Position numbers and translations under genes: made by a program. This document shows, piece after piece, positions 15,109 to 22,730 of a stretch of 34,362 nucleotides of DNA. The notes beneath the pieces were generated by a model that searched no databases, was not told the DNA's origin, and saw only the letters and a program-made list of their open reading frames with translations. The first letter of the stretch is position 1. Each line of letters opens with the position of its first letter. The DNA is from Candidatus Gastranaerophilales bacterium (GTDB lineage: Bacteria; Cyanobacteriota; Vampirovibrionia; Gastranaerophilales; Gastranaerophilaceae). The stretch lies in NCBI GenBank assembly GCA_944323535.1, contig CALUSW010000013.1:1-34362 (forward strand), read 5' to 3'.

Positions 15109-15312
15109 TTATTCGCTTTCAGCAACAACAGTAACTATTTGATTTCCGTAGCTGTCAACATGCCCGTCTGTTTTTTCAATTATATATCTTAGTCCCTCTT
15201 TACCTTCAACAGCCTTTTGCGCAGCTTCTAAAGCCCTGTCAAAGTTTGTATATTCACCTATTTGTTTCCTTGTGAATTCCGAGTAGTCTTTTTCAGTAAT
15301 AACATGAAACAT
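15109..15312 (-). CDS. Conserved-looking 67-aa protein downstream of folD
   Basis: A small soluble acidic protein of 67 residues, predicted mixed alpha/beta: MFHVITEKDYSEF, a helix DRALEAAQKAVEG, a strand LRYIIEKTDG and a final strand NQIVTVVAE. A strong Shine-Dalgarno (AAGGAG) 8-9 nt before the ATG makes it a real gene. It is the last member of the CooC-like/folD operon, 31 nt after folD, and ends just before the bidirectional terminator. No family is recognised. No cysteine or histidine cluster is present that would suggest metal binding. Confidence 0.7.
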   Translation of the reverse strand: MFHVITEKDYSEFTRKQIGEYTNFDRALEAAQKAVEGKEGLRYIIEKTDGHVDSYGNQIVTVVAESE

Positions 15313-15343: not shown

Positions 15344-16192
15344 CTAAATTAAAAATTTTCTTTGAATTTCAAATAACTGATATGTATTCTCCATAAGCAT
15401 GGCAATAGTCATTGGCCCAATTCCTCCCGGAACAGGTGTTATATACGAAGCTTTAGGCGCAGCCGAAATGAAATCTATATCTCCTGTTATTCCGTTTTGT
15501 GTTCTGTTTATACCAACATCAACAATAACAGCACCTTCCCTGATAAATTCAGAGGTTATAAAACCTGCTTTTCCTGCTGCTGAAATAATAATATCCGAAT
15601 TTAATGCCGGCTCTTTCAGATTTTTTGTATAACTGTTTGCCATTGTAACAGTTGCATTTCTTTGCTGCAGCATAAAAGAAACGGGTTTACCTACAATATT
15701 TGACCTTCCTATAACAAGAACATTTTGTCCGGCAAGAGTAATATTATATTCATCAAGCAGTCTTATTATTCCTTTTGGTGTGCAGGGATATACATAAGGT
15801 TCATAACCTAAAGCAAGCCTTCCGAAATTAAAGGATGTAAAACCGTCAACATCTTTTACAGGATCAATAGCTTCCAGAATTTTTTGTGTATTTATTCCTT
15901 TTGGAAGAGGAAGCTGTATAAGAATTGCATTTATGTTTGTGTCTTCATTCAGAATGAAAATGTGCTCCAGAATATTTTCTTCCGTAACATCTTCCGGAAG
16001 CGGGATTACAACGGATTCAAAACCAATGTAGTGTGCTTTTTTTTGCTTATTATTAACATATATACAGCTTGCCGGATTATTACCTGCCAATATTACTGCG
16101 AGCTTAGGCTTTTTTGTAAGTTCTGCGGTTTTATTTTTAAGTTCTTCTATAATTTTATTTGCCGTATTTTTTCCGTCTAATATTATTGTCAT
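15344..16192 (-). CDS. folD: Methylene-THF dehydrogenase/cyclohydrolase
   Basis: A 282-residue bifunctional FolD, converting 5,10-methylene-THF to 5,10-methenyl-THF and on to 10-formyl-THF, the formyl donor for fmt and purine synthesis. Visible are the catalytic Y45-x3-K49 in ASCIYVNNK, QLPLPKGI, the substrate loop DVDGF, PCTPKGI, the NADP-binding VIGRSNIVGKP and the C-terminal PVPGGIGPMTIAML. Length is typical. The ATG overlaps the upstream ATPase stop by 4 nt (16189-16192), so translation is coupled. Pairing with a CooC-like ATPase is unusual outside acetyl-CoA pathway loci. The enzyme completes one-carbon flow with glyA, about 2.7 kb away on the other strand. Confidence 0.96.
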   Translation of the reverse strand: MTIILDGKNTANKIIEELKNKTAELTKKPKLAVILAGNNPASCIYVNNKQKKAHYIGFESVVIPLPEDVTEENILEHIFILNEDTNINAILIQLPLPKGINTQKILEAIDPVKDVDGFTSFNFGRLALGYEPYVYPCTPKGIIRLLDEYNITLAGQNVLVIGRSNIVGKPVSFMLQQRNATVTMANSYTKNLKEPALNSDIIISAAGKAGFITSEFIREGAVIVDVGINRTQNGITGDIDFISAAPKASYITPVPGGIGPMTIAMLMENTYQLFEIQRKFLI

Positions 16193-16947
16193 TGTATTTC
16201 TTCTTGTTGTGGTATGTTTAGTCTGTAATATAGCTGCTCAATTGCATTTTTAACAATAGATGATTCCTTTGAAACTCTGTTTTCTTTTAACAAATCATCT
16301 TTTGGAATTGTTCCGAGGATTGTCAGGTCATATTTATTAAGCAGTTCAAGCAAAGGCTCGATTTCTTGTTTATTAACTTTATTTAAAATAACCCCGAGTT
16401 GTTCGCCGGCTGCATATTTTGCACTGTATTCTTCTATTCTTTTTGCAAGATGAACGGAAGCTTCATTCGGTCTTGCTATTACGAGGGTTACATTTATGGG
16501 AATATCAACCAGCTGATAAAGATATTTCAGGTCAAATTCGCAATCAAATATAACAAAGTCATATCTGCTTATTAATTTAACAAGAGCATCATTAATTTGT
16601 CTTGTTATGGGGCAGCGGCAGTCTTTTGAGCCTATAAGCCACGATACGATTATGTCTGTATTGTCATCAAGTGGAACAAGTATATCTTCTAACGCCCATT
16701 CAATATATTCCTGCTTGGTCATATTTTCAGGTATTCCGGTTTTATATTCATGTTTACCGCTGCGTATTCCGTATATCGTTTGCCGTATATCTTTTCCGAA
16801 ACTGTGACCGAGTTCCCCCGTTAAATCATTATCAAATAATAAAACGGATTTATCAGGATTTTTTTCCCGTATTACATGCCATAAAGCTTTCGTAATTGTT
16901 GTTTTCCCGCTTCCGCTTTTTCCTGTAATCGCAATAGATACTGTCAT
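16189..16947 (-). CDS. CooC-like MinD-family P-loop ATPase
   Basis: A 252-residue SIMIBI-class ATPase. Residues 8-16 form a deviant Walker A, TGKSGSGKT, with the signature lysine K10 and catalytic K15, and DN at 39-40 follows as a switch region. C110-x-C112 (in the SKDCRCP segment) sits where CooC proteins carry their CxC dimer metal site, about 110 residues in, followed by a helix as in CooC. A strand YDFVIFDCE (129-137) is the Walker B equivalent, then VILNKVN (NKxD-like base motif). CooC matures nickel CO dehydrogenase; related ATPases act in other metal or cofactor insertion. I chose the ATG at 16945-16947 because GGAG lies 8 nt upstream; an upstream in-frame TTG at 16989 lacks one. It overlaps folD by 4 nt. 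Confidence 0.75.
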   Translation of the reverse strand: MTVSIAITGKSGSGKTTITKALWHVIREKNPDKSVLLFDNDLTGELGHSFGKDIRQTIYGIRSGKHEYKTGIPENMTKQEYIEWALEDILVPLDDNTDIIVSWLIGSKDCRCPITRQINDALVKLISRYDFVIFDCEFDLKYLYQLVDIPINVTLVIARPNEASVHLAKRIEEYSAKYAAGEQLGVILNKVNKQEIEPLLELLNKYDLTILGTIPKDDLLKENRVSKESSIVKNAIEQLYYRLNIPQQEEIQ

Positions 16948-17009
16948 TAAAATCTCCGATATATCCTGATATTTAGCTGTAATTCCCAATAAATGGAAAT
17001 TCTTCTAAT

Positions 17010-17018
17010 ATTATATCA
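17010..17018 (-). promoter_or_regulatory. Extended -10 promoter of CooC-like/folD operon
   Basis: The minus strand reads TGATATAAT, the same perfect extended -10 as at 5202-5210, again without a recognisable -35. Transcription would begin near 17003, about 55 nt before the chosen ATG. This makes the ATPase the first gene of its own operon, separate from queE. Confidence 0.6.
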
Positions 17019-18899: not shown

Positions 18900-20147
18900 A
18901 TGGAAATAGAAGAAATAAGGAAAACAGACAAAGAAATTGCCGGTTTAATAGAAAAAGAGCTTGAAAGACAGCAGACAACAATAGAATTAATAGCAAGTGA
19001 AAATTTTACATCCAAAGCTGTAATGGCAGCATGCGGCAGTGTTTTAACAAATAAATATGCTGAGGGCAAACCGTATAAGAGATTTTATAACGGCTGTGAA
19101 AATGTGGATAAAATAGAAGAACTTGCCCAGGAACGCGCAAAAGAATTATTTAATGCAGAACATGCTAATGTTCAGCCTCACAGCGGTGCCCAGGCTAATA
19201 TGGCTGTTTTTTTGTATGCCGTAAAACCGGGCGATACTGTAATGGGAATGGATTTATCAAACGGCGGGCACTTAACTCACGGTTCTCCCGTTAATTTTTC
19301 GGGTTTGTATTTTAATATAGTTTCTTACGGAATAAATGATAAAGGTGAAATTGATTATGACAATGTAAGGGAACTTGCATTAAAACATAAACCAAAACTA
19401 ATAATATGCGGTGCCAGCAATTATTCAAAAATAATTGATTTTAAAAAATTCAGAGAAATAGCGGACGGGGTCGGTGCATATTTAATGGCGGATATTGCGC
19501 ATATTGCAGCTCTTGTGGCGACCGGAATTCATCCAAATCCCTTTCCATATGCTGATTTTGTAACAACAACTACTCATAAAACCTTGAGAGGTCCCAGAGG
19601 CGGAATTATAATGTGTAAAAAAGAACATGCTATGGGGATAGATAAAGCAGTTTTCCCGGGTATTCAAGGAGGACCTCTTGAGCATATTATTGCAGCTAAA
19701 GCGATTGCTCTAAAGGAGGCTTTATCTGACGACTTTAAAACATACGCAAAGCAGGTTGTCTTAAACGCAAAAGCACTTGCAAAGTCATTAATGGACGAAG
19801 GTTTGGATATTGTCGGAAACGGAACGGAAAATCATTTAATGACTCTTGATTTGAGGAAATTAAATAAAACAGGTAAAGATATTGCAAATATTTTAGAACA
19901 TGTGGGCATAACTGCAAATAAAAATACGGTTCCGAATGATCCGCAGAGTCCTTTTGTAACAAGCGGTGTAAGGCTTGGCTCACCTGCAGTTACAACAAGA
20001 GGTTTTAAAGAAGAAGATATGAAAGAAGTCGGCAAAATTATAGCAGAAGCCGTTAAAATATCCGATTCTCCGGATGAAAACAAGATAAAAGAACTCAAAG
20101 AACGTTCTTTGGCTCTTTGTAAGAAATACCCGCTGTATAAGGATTAA
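18900..20147 (+). CDS. glyA: Serine hydroxymethyltransferase
   Basis: A 415-residue PLP enzyme that converts serine and THF to glycine and 5,10-methylene-THF, the main entry to one-carbon metabolism. Visible are [35 protein letters not shown], the PLP segment [13 protein letters not shown] with the Schiff-base lysine K227 (H226 before it), and the C-terminal [15 protein letters not shown]. Length and motifs are standard. It opens an operon running through at least truB: the next gene starts 2 nt after its stop. Co-transcription with fmt and infB ties one-carbon supply to translation initiation. Confidence 0.97.
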
Positions 20148-20149
20148 TT

Positions 20150-21199
20150 ATGACTTTTCTTCAATTATCCGAAGCGAATATAATAGGTTCGGTTATAGCT
20201 TTTATAATAGGATTATTTCTGGTTCCTTTAATAATTGTTTTTTCAGAGAAAAAGGGGTTAATGGATAAACCTAACGAAAGAAAAATACATTCCCAGCCTA
20301 TTCCGAGGCTTGGAGGCGTCGCAATATGGTTTTGTTCAATGCTTTCGTTTTTGTCGCTTATAATATTAAGCTATTATCCTTACAGGTCGCTATTATCGGG
20401 GATACTTCTCGGCAGCTCGTTGATGTTTTTACTCGGACTTACGGATGATTTATTTTCTCTCGGCGCAAAATTTAAGTTTGTAATACAAATTACCATAGCT
20501 TCTATTGTATTTTGTCTCGGCGTTAAAATAAGTACTCTTTATATTCCTTTTATGGGAATGGTGGAAATTCACCCTGTTCTTTCTTATTTTGGAACAATAG
20601 CGTGGATTGTCGGAATAAGTAATGCGGTTAACTTTATAGATGGTGTTGACGGACTTGCCGGGTCTGTCATTACAGTTAGTTCCGTTACTCTCGGGCTGAT
20701 TGCAACAGCGCTTATTCCGTCTGATACCGTAAGTTCTTTAATTGCATTTATACTTGCAGGATCCATGCTTGGATTTTTAACTTATAATTTCCATCCGGCA
20801 AAAATATTTATGGGTGACTCAGGAGCATTATTTGCAGGATTTATACTTGCAACTTTATCAATAATGTATCAAATGAAAGCTCCCGGTTGGAACATGTATG
20901 TGCCACTTCTGGTGCTTGCCGTTCCTATTATTGATATAACGTTTTCTTCAATGAGAAGAATATTAAAGGGCAAATCTCCTTTTGTTGCGGATTCGGAACA
21001 TATACATCATAAACTTTTGCATCTGGGATTATCACAAAATAAAGCGGTATTGGTTCTTGTTATCTTTTCAATATTCACAGGCTGGCTTGCAACCTATATT
21101 GCGGCGTCCGATACTACAAAATATTTCATTTATGCTGTTATAATATCTACTGTAATGATTATACTCAACAGACATGCAAAAATCGGTGAAGGAAAATAA
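20150..21199 (+). CDS. WecA/TagO-type undecaprenyl-P sugar-1-P transferase
   Basis: A 349-residue polytopic membrane protein of the MraY/WecA/TagO superfamily, with about ten hydrophobic segments. It transfers a sugar-1-phosphate, usually GlcNAc-1-P, from UDP-sugar to undecaprenyl phosphate at the cytoplasmic face, the first step of many envelope glycans. Family motifs in order: DKPNERKIHSQPIPRLGG near the N-terminus, GLTDDLFSLGAKFKF (the Mg-binding DD pair), NAVNFIDGVDGLAG, FMGDSGALFAGF and the C-terminal HIHHKLLHLG (HHH-like sugar-nucleotide motif of WecA/TagO rather than MraY). It sits 2 nt after glyA and 3 nt before def. The acceptor glycan is not evident. Confidence 0.9.
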   Translation: MTFLQLSEANIIGSVIAFIIGLFLVPLIIVFSEKKGLMDKPNERKIHSQPIPRLGGVAIWFCSMLSFLSLIILSYYPYRSLLSGILLGSSLMFLLGLTDDLFSLGAKFKFVIQITIASIVFCLGVKISTLYIPFMGMVEIHPVLSYFGTIAWIVGISNAVNFIDGVDGLAGSVITVSSVTLGLIATALIPSDTVSSLIAFILAGSMLGFLTYNFHPAKIFMGDSGALFAGFILATLSIMYQMKAPGWNMYVPLLVLAVPIIDITFSSMRRILKGKSPFVADSEHIHHKLLHLGLSQNKAVLVLVIFSIFTGWLATYIAASDTTKYFIYAVIISTVMIILNRHAKIGEGK

Positions 21200-21202
21200 A
21201 TA

Positions 21203-21793
21203 ATGACTGTAAGAAAAATAGTAAAATACGGAACACCTTCTTTAAGGGAAAAGTCAAAAGAAGTACATAAAATTTCAAAGAAAATTCAGCTGCTTGTGGA
21301 GGATTTATATGATACTTTATATGCTCTTAACGGAGTGGGGCTTGCGGCACCTCAAATCGGCGAAAATCTGAGAGTTTTTGTTGTAGATGTCGGAACAGAT
21401 CCTAAAACAATGAATCCTATTACTTTTATAAATCCTAAAATTTTGAAGAAAGAAGGTGCGGTTAATTCTTATGAAGGATGTTTAAGTTTTCCGGAAGCTT
21501 ATACGAATGTAAGAAGATATAAATATGTAAAAGTTAAAGCAACTGACATAAAAGGCAGACCGTTTATAATTGAAGCGGACGGCGGGTCTTTATTGGCAAG
21601 ATGTATACAGCATGAATTTGATCATCTTGACGGAATTTTATTTATAGATCATTGCCGAAACAGATTTGAAGCGGATAAAATTCTTACGGAAAAAGGTTTA
21701 GCGCCCGTTGACGCTAATTATCTTCTTGATGAAAAAGAACTGGAAGAAGAAATACAGCATAATCCGCAGCCGGAGGAAAAGAAAGTTGATTAA
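21203..21793 (+). CDS. def: Peptide deformylase
   Basis: A 196-residue peptide deformylase that removes the N-formyl group from nascent proteins. All three motifs are intact: GVGLAAPQIG, EGCLSFPE with metal ligand C93, and HEFDH with H137, E138 and H141. The C-terminus ends in an acidic Glu-rich tail (DEKELEEEIQ), a minor extension. The stop overlaps the TTG start of fmt by 8 nt; the fmt Shine-Dalgarno GGAGG lies in the last codons of def. The def-fmt pairing is a widespread arrangement that couples formylation and deformylation. Confidence 0.96.
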   Translation: MTVRKIVKYGTPSLREKSKEVHKISKKIQLLVEDLYDTLYALNGVGLAAPQIGENLRVFVVDVGTDPKTMNPITFINPKILKKEGAVNSYEGCLSFPEAYTNVRRYKYVKVKATDIKGRPFIIEADGGSLLARCIQHEFDHLDGILFIDHCRNRFEADKILTEKGLAPVDANYLLDEKELEEEIQHNPQPEEKKVD

Positions 21794-22730
21794 ACTTATC
21801 TATCTTGCTACGCCTGATATCGCAGTTAAAGCTCTTGAGAAATTAAATAAAAAGCCTGATATTGAAATTTTAGCGGTTGTAACCCAGCCTGACAGACCTA
21901 AAGGAAGAGGGAAAAAACTTGCACCTCCTCCCGTTAAAGTATGTGCATCTGAAAATAATATTGAATGTTTTCAGACCGAAAAAATAAGCAAAGATGCGGA
22001 GTTAATTAAAAAATTAAAAGAATTAAATCCTGATTTTTTTGTTACTTTTGCATTCGGTCAAATATTATCACAGGAGGTGCTTGATATACCGAGGATAGCA
22101 ACTGTTAATCTTCATGCTTCACTTCTACCGAAATATAGAGGGGCAAATCCTATTCAAAGATGCATATATAATGGTGATACTGTAACAGGTATAACGACAA
22201 TGCTCACTGTTCTGGAACTTGACGCCGGAGATATCTGTGAAACCGAAGAAATAAAAATATCAGAAAATATGACAGATATTGAACTTAAAGATATTATTGC
22301 AGATAAATCACCTGAGTTAATATATTCAACGCTTAAAGGTTTATATTTAGGCTGTTTAAAACCTAAAAAGCAGTGTAAAGACGGAATTACGATTGCTAAT
22401 AAGTTTAAAAAAGAAGACGGTCTTATAAACTGGGATAATTCAGCATTGAACATTCATAATCAGGTGCGTTCAATGGTTGATTTCCCGTGCGCATATACAT
22501 TTTTTAACGGAAAGATGATTAAGGTAATTGAAACGGAAATCTTAAATACTGAAAATAAAAATTGCAGCTGCGGAGAAATTATAACCGTAACCAAACAGGG
22601 AATAGAAGTTAATACAAAATGCGGCTGCCTTCTAATAAAAAAAGTAAAACCCGAAAGTAAAGGAGTTATGGGTGCTTTTGATTTTGCCAACGGTGCAAAA
22701 ATAAGTAAAAAAATGAAATTCGGAGATTAG
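21786..22730 (+). CDS. fmt: Methionyl-tRNA formyltransferase
   Basis: A 314-residue Fmt, which transfers the formyl group from 10-formyl-THF to initiator Met-tRNA. The catalytic residues are N108 and H110 (VNLHASLLPKYRGANP) and D146 (ELDAGD). A C-terminal OB-type tRNA-binding domain follows (about 205-314). I place the start at TTG 21786-21788, since GGAGG (nine nt upstream) is ideally placed and the protein then begins MIKLIYLATPD like other Fmt proteins; an in-frame ATG at 21708 would add 26 basic, non-homologous residues. It overlaps def by 8 nt, and aroH begins 1 nt after its stop. Confidence 0.95.
   Translation: MIKLIYLATPDIAVKALEKLNKKPDIEILAVVTQPDRPKGRGKKLAPPPVKVCASENNIECFQTEKISKDAELIKKLKELNPDFFVTFAFGQILSQEVLDIPRIATVNLHASLLPKYRGANPIQRCIYNGDTVTGITTMLTVLELDAGDICETEEIKISENMTDIELKDIIADKSPELIYSTLKGLYLGCLKPKKQCKDGITIANKFKKEDGLINWDNSALNIHNQVRSMVDFPCAYTFFNGKMIKVIETEILNTENKNCSCGEIITVTKQGIEVNTKCGCLLIKKVKPESKGVMGAFDFANGAKISKKMKFGD

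Follow-up and report, generated by a model that had tools for sequence, protein, structure and literature searches.

A CooC-type ATPase gene that directly precedes folD was found to be near-universal in Gastranaerophilales, an order of gut bacteria related to cyanobacteria. Its product is most likely a CxC metallochaperone powered by ATP and linked to folate/corrinoid one-carbon metabolism. CooC-type ATPases are known helpers of CO dehydrogenase (CODH) and acetyl-CoA synthase (ACS). In this order, the ATPase has kept all the cysteines of its metal site where ACS is absent and CODH almost so, and its client can therefore be sought. No description of this ATPase gene, or of a methyl branch free of ACS in the order, was found in the literature searched. 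The window, that is, the whole analysed stretch of 34,362 nucleotides (contig CALUSW010000013.1), originates from a Candidatus Gastranaerophilales MAG, and the genomes compared were mostly MAGs as well.

The features of the locus are listed in the table below. The start of the ATPase gene was placed at the ATG rather than at the TTG at 16989, in agreement with the starts of its homologues. K10, K15, and D39 were invariant in 108 of 108 distinct homologues, and the three cysteines C110, C112, and C136 in 113 of 113. Chance was thus excluded as the origin of the motifs, and the description of the protein as a MinD/CooC-type ATPase carrying K10, K15, and C110/C112, which a sequence-only reading had given, was exact in residue numbers and coordinates. 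A cysteine at the position of C136 also occurs in some MinD proteins. The same reading had taken the GSGKT loop as a possible sign of a new branch; this was ruled out, as 13 of 108 family members carry GKGGSGKTT in place of the GKSGSGKTT of most members, and the loop is not diagnostic. The Pfam family of the protein was CbiA, and its monomer was modeled with a pLDDT of 79 and a pTM of 0.84. An Rfam search of the window returned only tRNAs, none of them at the ATPase/folD locus.

Table. Features of the ATPase/folD locus in window coordinates.
Feature	Position	Strand	Description or basis
folD	15344..16192	-	282 aa, canonical catalytic residues
4-nt overlap (ATGA) between the ATPase stop and the folD start	16189..16192	-	Sequence
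CooC-type ATPase	16189..16947	-	252 aa, ATG at 16947
Walker B region with the third invariant Cys (D135-C136-E137)	16537..16545	-	Conservation
CxC, C110-R-C112	16612..16620	-	Aligned to CooC1 C112/C114
Deviant Walker A GKSGSGKTT, residues 9-17	16897..16923	-	Signature K10, P-loop K15
Extended -10-like TGATATAAT upstream of ATPase	17010..17018	-	Putative promoter element

The kinship of the ATPase was examined against CooC, MinD, and their relatives. MinD was the best match in a single-sequence search of the PDB, and CooC1 of Carboxydothermus hydrogenoformans (3KJE-3KJI) was the best in a search with the family profile (1e-12; MinD, 5.6e-9). CooC1 shares the fold and was aligned over the whole length (3kje), with the CxC of the ATPase falling exactly on C112/C114, which are Zn or Ni ligands at the dimer interface of CooC1 (PMC6006190). 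The family profile scored 111 bits with a CooC paralogue on the corrinoid iron-sulfur protein (CFeSP) side of an acetogen cluster, a value that represents one locus (Acetoanaerobium), 55 bits with CODH-side CooC, 50 bits with CooC1 (about half the score of the paralogue), and 33 bits with MinD. MinD (1HYQ, 1ION) and ParA share the fold and the deviant Walker A; however, the MinD compared has no CxC, and the conserved gene context of the ATPase is folate rather than division or partition. In a 23-row tree, the ATPase family grouped with CooC/AcsF over MinD/ParA at 70/76 support, and the alternative grouping with MinD was not rejected (p-AU of 0.33). The predicted monomer matched the folds of MinD and CooC about equally (Z of 19.3 and 18.1, respectively). 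The CooC-like identity assigned in the sequence-only reading was therefore favored over MinD by the CxC alignment and the profile, while the tree leaned toward it only at the above support.

By profile score, the nearest outside relative found for the ATPase is the CooC paralogue that lies beside CFeSP in acetogens. It was detected by tblastn as an unannotated locus in Acetoanaerobium, in the order cooS-cooC-fhs-fchA-metV-metF-lpdA-[relative]-acsD-acsC-acsE-acsB-gcvH, which was read from translated sequences with AcsB confirmed by Pfam. A Terrisporobacter cluster has been listed with the same genes and a cooC between lpdA and acsD (PMC10564238). As the naming of cooC and acsF differs between papers, we designated the paralogue by its gene position. 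The paralogue carries the CxC at the same place as the ATPase and has in common with it MTK-x-x-Y before the CxC, the lack of a two-residue insert there, and D-x-E after Walker B; it also adjoins AcsE and FolD-type genes. The two proteins are 26% identical, and the loop of the paralogue is GKGGTGKT, in contrast to the GKSGSGKT of most ATPase members. Their settings also differ, in that the ATPase is tied to folD in an order without ACS and mostly without CODH.

The folD gene lay directly downstream of the ATPase gene, on the same strand, at 108 of the 111 distinct loci of the order, the exceptions being L126, L228, and L042. The spacing in relatives ranged from -23 to +59 nt, rarely more, and the 4-nt overlap that had been reported for the window, which was seen in the sequence, is one of several arrangements. 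The genes farther out varied between genera while the adjacency persisted. Both genes were missing from G039 and G256 (both 99% complete), and in other members of the class, beyond the order, folD occurs without the ATPase. The conserved pairing envisaged in the sequence-only reading was thus borne out and, as the CxC was conserved too, that reading withstood the comparison with relatives in both respects. FolD showed no metal site and no Cys or His specific to the order, and its catalytic residues are canonical. Metal delivery to it is accordingly unlikely, and it was ruled out as the metalloenzyme client. It may be a partner of the ATPase or merely an enzyme whose expression is matched to that of the client.

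The close linkage with folD allows another explanation, in which the ATPase is an ATP switch of the MinD kind, regulating or scaffolding FolD or another folate enzyme by binding it, and the CxC is a structural zinc site of the dimer with no part in delivery. FolD is its near-constant neighbor, Zn is bound at this site by CooC1 too, which dimerizes with it (PMC6006190), and MinD and CooC score nearly alike against the predicted fold; yet the profile similarity is higher to CooC-type proteins than to MinD, three loci have no adjacent folD, and the surface of FolD has a signature specific to the order of a few residues at most. We consider this explanation unlikely, although it survives better than the other alternatives.

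The sequence-only reading had also provided the ATPase with its own extended -10 promoter. The motif is present; however, TGATATAAT was counted 10 times in the window, where 3.7 occurrences would be expected, and a -35/-10 scan of the window listed no site at 17018-17010, so that an own promoter is plausible at most. In many relatives, the ATPase gene overlaps or abuts the upstream gene, and such a promoter is therefore not general.

The wider operon of the order, which the sequence-only reading had missed along with the co-occurrence of CFeSP and the fact that the CFeSP-side paralogue is more closely related than CODH-type CooC, has the arrangement [MesB-like core methionine synthase]-[ATPase]-folD-[AcsE-like]. 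A gene for a protein of approximately 360 aa with GSLPH, HCCG, and SCGAG motifs lies directly upstream of the ATPase in the other families and, within the window's family, in many further genera. In the other families, folD is usually followed by an AcsE-like gene (PRK07535, 7e-65). The predicted structure of the upstream protein (pLDDT of 85, pTM of 0.88) matched the catalytic half of MetE (Z of 23.9, 285 residues, 3.1 A) and the core synthase 3rpd (Z of 23.7), and uroporphyrinogen decarboxylase was clearly lower (19.4). Its profile returned only repeat-protein artefacts among PDB sequences. The putative zinc residues (H222, C224, D243, and C320 in L093) are spaced nearly as the zinc ligands of MesB (214, 216, 235, and 311; Price et al., PMC7857596). 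As the published threshold for MesB is at least 173 bits to DET0516 (PMC7857596), the label MesB-like used here denotes the core MetE fold with the His/Cys/Asp/Cys residues rather than that score.

CFeSP, AcsE-like, and MesB-like genes were found in the same 19 of 22 genomes of the order outside the window's genus, and MetF was found in 16 of these 19. Together with FolD, they probably represent the methyl branch of the Wood-Ljungdahl pathway without ACS, making methionine, as judged from gene content, from which the direction of the pathway is also deduced. CFeSP subunits were reported in all MesB-bearing proteomes, and MesB was treated as a Wood-Ljungdahl enzyme (Price et al., PMC7857596); likewise, the MesB-like protein always occurred with CFeSP in the genomes tested. 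In comparison with MesB and CFeSP of Dehalococcoides and Wood-Ljungdahl organisms (PMC7857596, PMC7005905), the fold of the MetE catalytic half is shared and the H-C-D-C spacing is near-identical, but the MesB-like gene is embedded with the ATPase and folD, unlike known MesB. D. mccartyi encodes AcsB but neither AcsE nor MetF, whereas Gastranaerophilales show the reverse, with no ACS but with AcsE and usually MetF. Full-length MetH was present in sister lineages, and the AcsE profile detected none in Gastranaerophilales. The AcsD-AcsC genes for the CFeSP subunits (L199-L203) were observed away from the ATPase operon in these ACS-free relatives of cyanobacteria. The locus points to an ACS-free Wood-Ljungdahl methyl branch in cyanobacterial relatives that probably feeds a MesB-like synthase; the route resembles an acetogen pathway that has been pared down and turned to methionine synthesis.

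Of the 57 genomes of the order, 54 carry a true homologue of the ATPase, a count that leaves out a MinD-looking match in G038 (24% identical), as do 34 of the 35 genomes of the window's genus. In a phylum-wide sample, almost all genomes of the window's family had the ATPase, none was found in a sister family of the same class, and cyanobacteria gave weak, partial matches at best. An assembly gap probably accounts for the absence from G256, as AcsE is still present there while the adjacent trio is missing; G039 seems to have truly lost the ATPase, FolD, MesB, AcsE, and CFeSP. A phage or plasmid origin was rejected, as the phage search gave no match and the single good match in a plasmid collection was a 2.6 Mb Acetoanaerobium replicon with the whole acs cluster, which is probably a chromosome.

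The window's genus has lost the MesB-like and AcsE-like genes and retained the ATPase and folD. CFeSP was found in none of its 35 genomes, and MesB-like and AcsE-like genes in none of the 15 tested, and the window's own genome lacks CFeSP and AcsE. Genome-wide searches of G047, G066, G094, G209, G213, and G266 likewise revealed the ATPase and folD and neither of the other two genes. On a tree of the ATPase and FolD, adjacency to MesB changes at least 11 times, seven of which are forced by supported branches and a few of which are relocations rather than losses. The ATPase in the genus is under strong purifying selection, with a median dN of 0.084 against a near-saturated pS of 0.71 (folD, dN of 0.267), and the low dN disfavors the hypothesis that it is a relic. 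In two genera, g34 and g38, the genes that come after the pair are alr, for alanine racemase, and gcvT or gcvH, the latter representing another folate-dependent system.

These data bear on the possibility that the ATPase serves only the methyl transfer by CFeSP, AcsE, and MesB, either by loading metal into MesB or CFeSP or by activating the corrinoid reductively, and is a relic where these are lost. The ancestral operon, the co-occurrence with the three proteins, and the position of the nearest outside relative beside acsD, acsC, and acsE agree with such a role. It is rendered improbable, slightly more so than a switch acting on FolD, by the retention of the ATPase without the pathway in several independent lineages, with all its cysteines and under strong purifying selection. 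The ATPase is thus not merely an accessory of that pathway, and it has a role for which none of the three proteins is needed.

CODH and other metalloenzymes were sought as clients, as the sequence-only reading had suggested one elsewhere in the organism. Neither CooS nor ACS was detected in the window's genome, which rules out a CODH there and sets the genome apart from the setting of CooC1. CooS was found in two of 57 genomes of the order (G035 and G041) and ACS in none of 58, using a search model that detects a bacterial AcsB as a positive control. The two CooS proteins are of the monofunctional type, beside ferredoxin-like and oxidoreductase-like proteins. Their genes (L163:10857-12758 and L164:9488-11389) belong to one family and have an Rrf2-like regulator nearby and no adjacent cooC; a canonical CooC query in both genomes gave the present ATPase as the best match, with the others weak and no separate CooC. 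NiFe-hydrogenase was rejected as a client, as it gave no match above the cut-off in the window's genome or the order. Hybrid cluster protein was also rejected, since HCP-like proteins occur in a minority of the genus genomes, in contrast to the ATPase. The window's genome encodes one normal copy (L001) and a degenerate paralogue (L002:1291-2889 in G000:C48). The latter, a Prismane-family protein of 532 aa (Pfam, 5e-25), lacks the N-terminal cluster cysteines of hybrid cluster protein. The folate-linked context, which had been proposed as the alternative to CODH, was supported.

A canonical CooC role, namely nickel insertion into the CODH of the same cell, is highly improbable despite the match of the CxC and deviant Walker A to CooC1: 55 of 57 genomes of the order have no CooS, the CFeSP-side paralogue is closer than CODH-side CooC, and the role is refuted for the window's genome unless a CODH sits, for each of the relatives, in the few percent that its assembly lacks, although the ATPase may act in this way in G035 and G041, where it is the only CooC-like match that is not weak.

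In our preferred explanation, the ATPase would form a homodimer, in which two CxC motifs are predicted to contribute four cysteines to one metal site at the interface. Binding of ATP, for which K15 lies in the P-loop and K10 would reach over to the other protomer, would close the dimer, and hydrolysis would open it and pass a metal or a conformational push to the client protein. The ancestral unit would have comprised MesB-like, ATPase, FolD, and AcsE-like genes, with CFeSP and usually MetF in trans, and would have converted CH2-THF to CH3-THF, then to methyl-CFeSP, and finally to methionine. In the window's genus, this pathway would be gone and the ATPase-FolD pair left, so that the ATPase would have at least one further client. 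Taken as a whole, that a CooC/MinD-class homodimer serves folate/corrinoid one-carbon metabolism and not CODH appears to us about evenly balanced. We counted against it the three loci without adjacent folD, the lack of a metal site in FolD, the tree in which MinD was not rejected, and the nearly equal fold scores. That this CooC-class ATPase acts on a conserved client other than CODH and ACS, within folate one-carbon metabolism, is proposed more tentatively. If such a folate client exists, the CFeSP-side CooC of acetogens may share the role, and the folate metabolism of these bacteria would contain an unrecognized metal- or ATP-dependent step.

Some minor observations were made around the locus. 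A 67-aa ORF (15109-15312, minus strand) directly after folD belongs to no Pfam family and had no homologue among the relatives' loci examined. Near folD, on the opposite strand (18900-22730, plus strand), glyA and a wecA-like gene are followed by ORFs resembling def and fmt, placing producers and users of folate one-carbon units side by side. In relatives (L049:3516-3938 and L034, L035, L038, L039, L042-L044, and L048), a gene for an XRE-type regulator lies divergent from the MesB-ATPase operon. Its product ends in a zinc-ribbon-like C-terminal CPxC...CSKCP tail and is possibly metal- or methionine-sensing.
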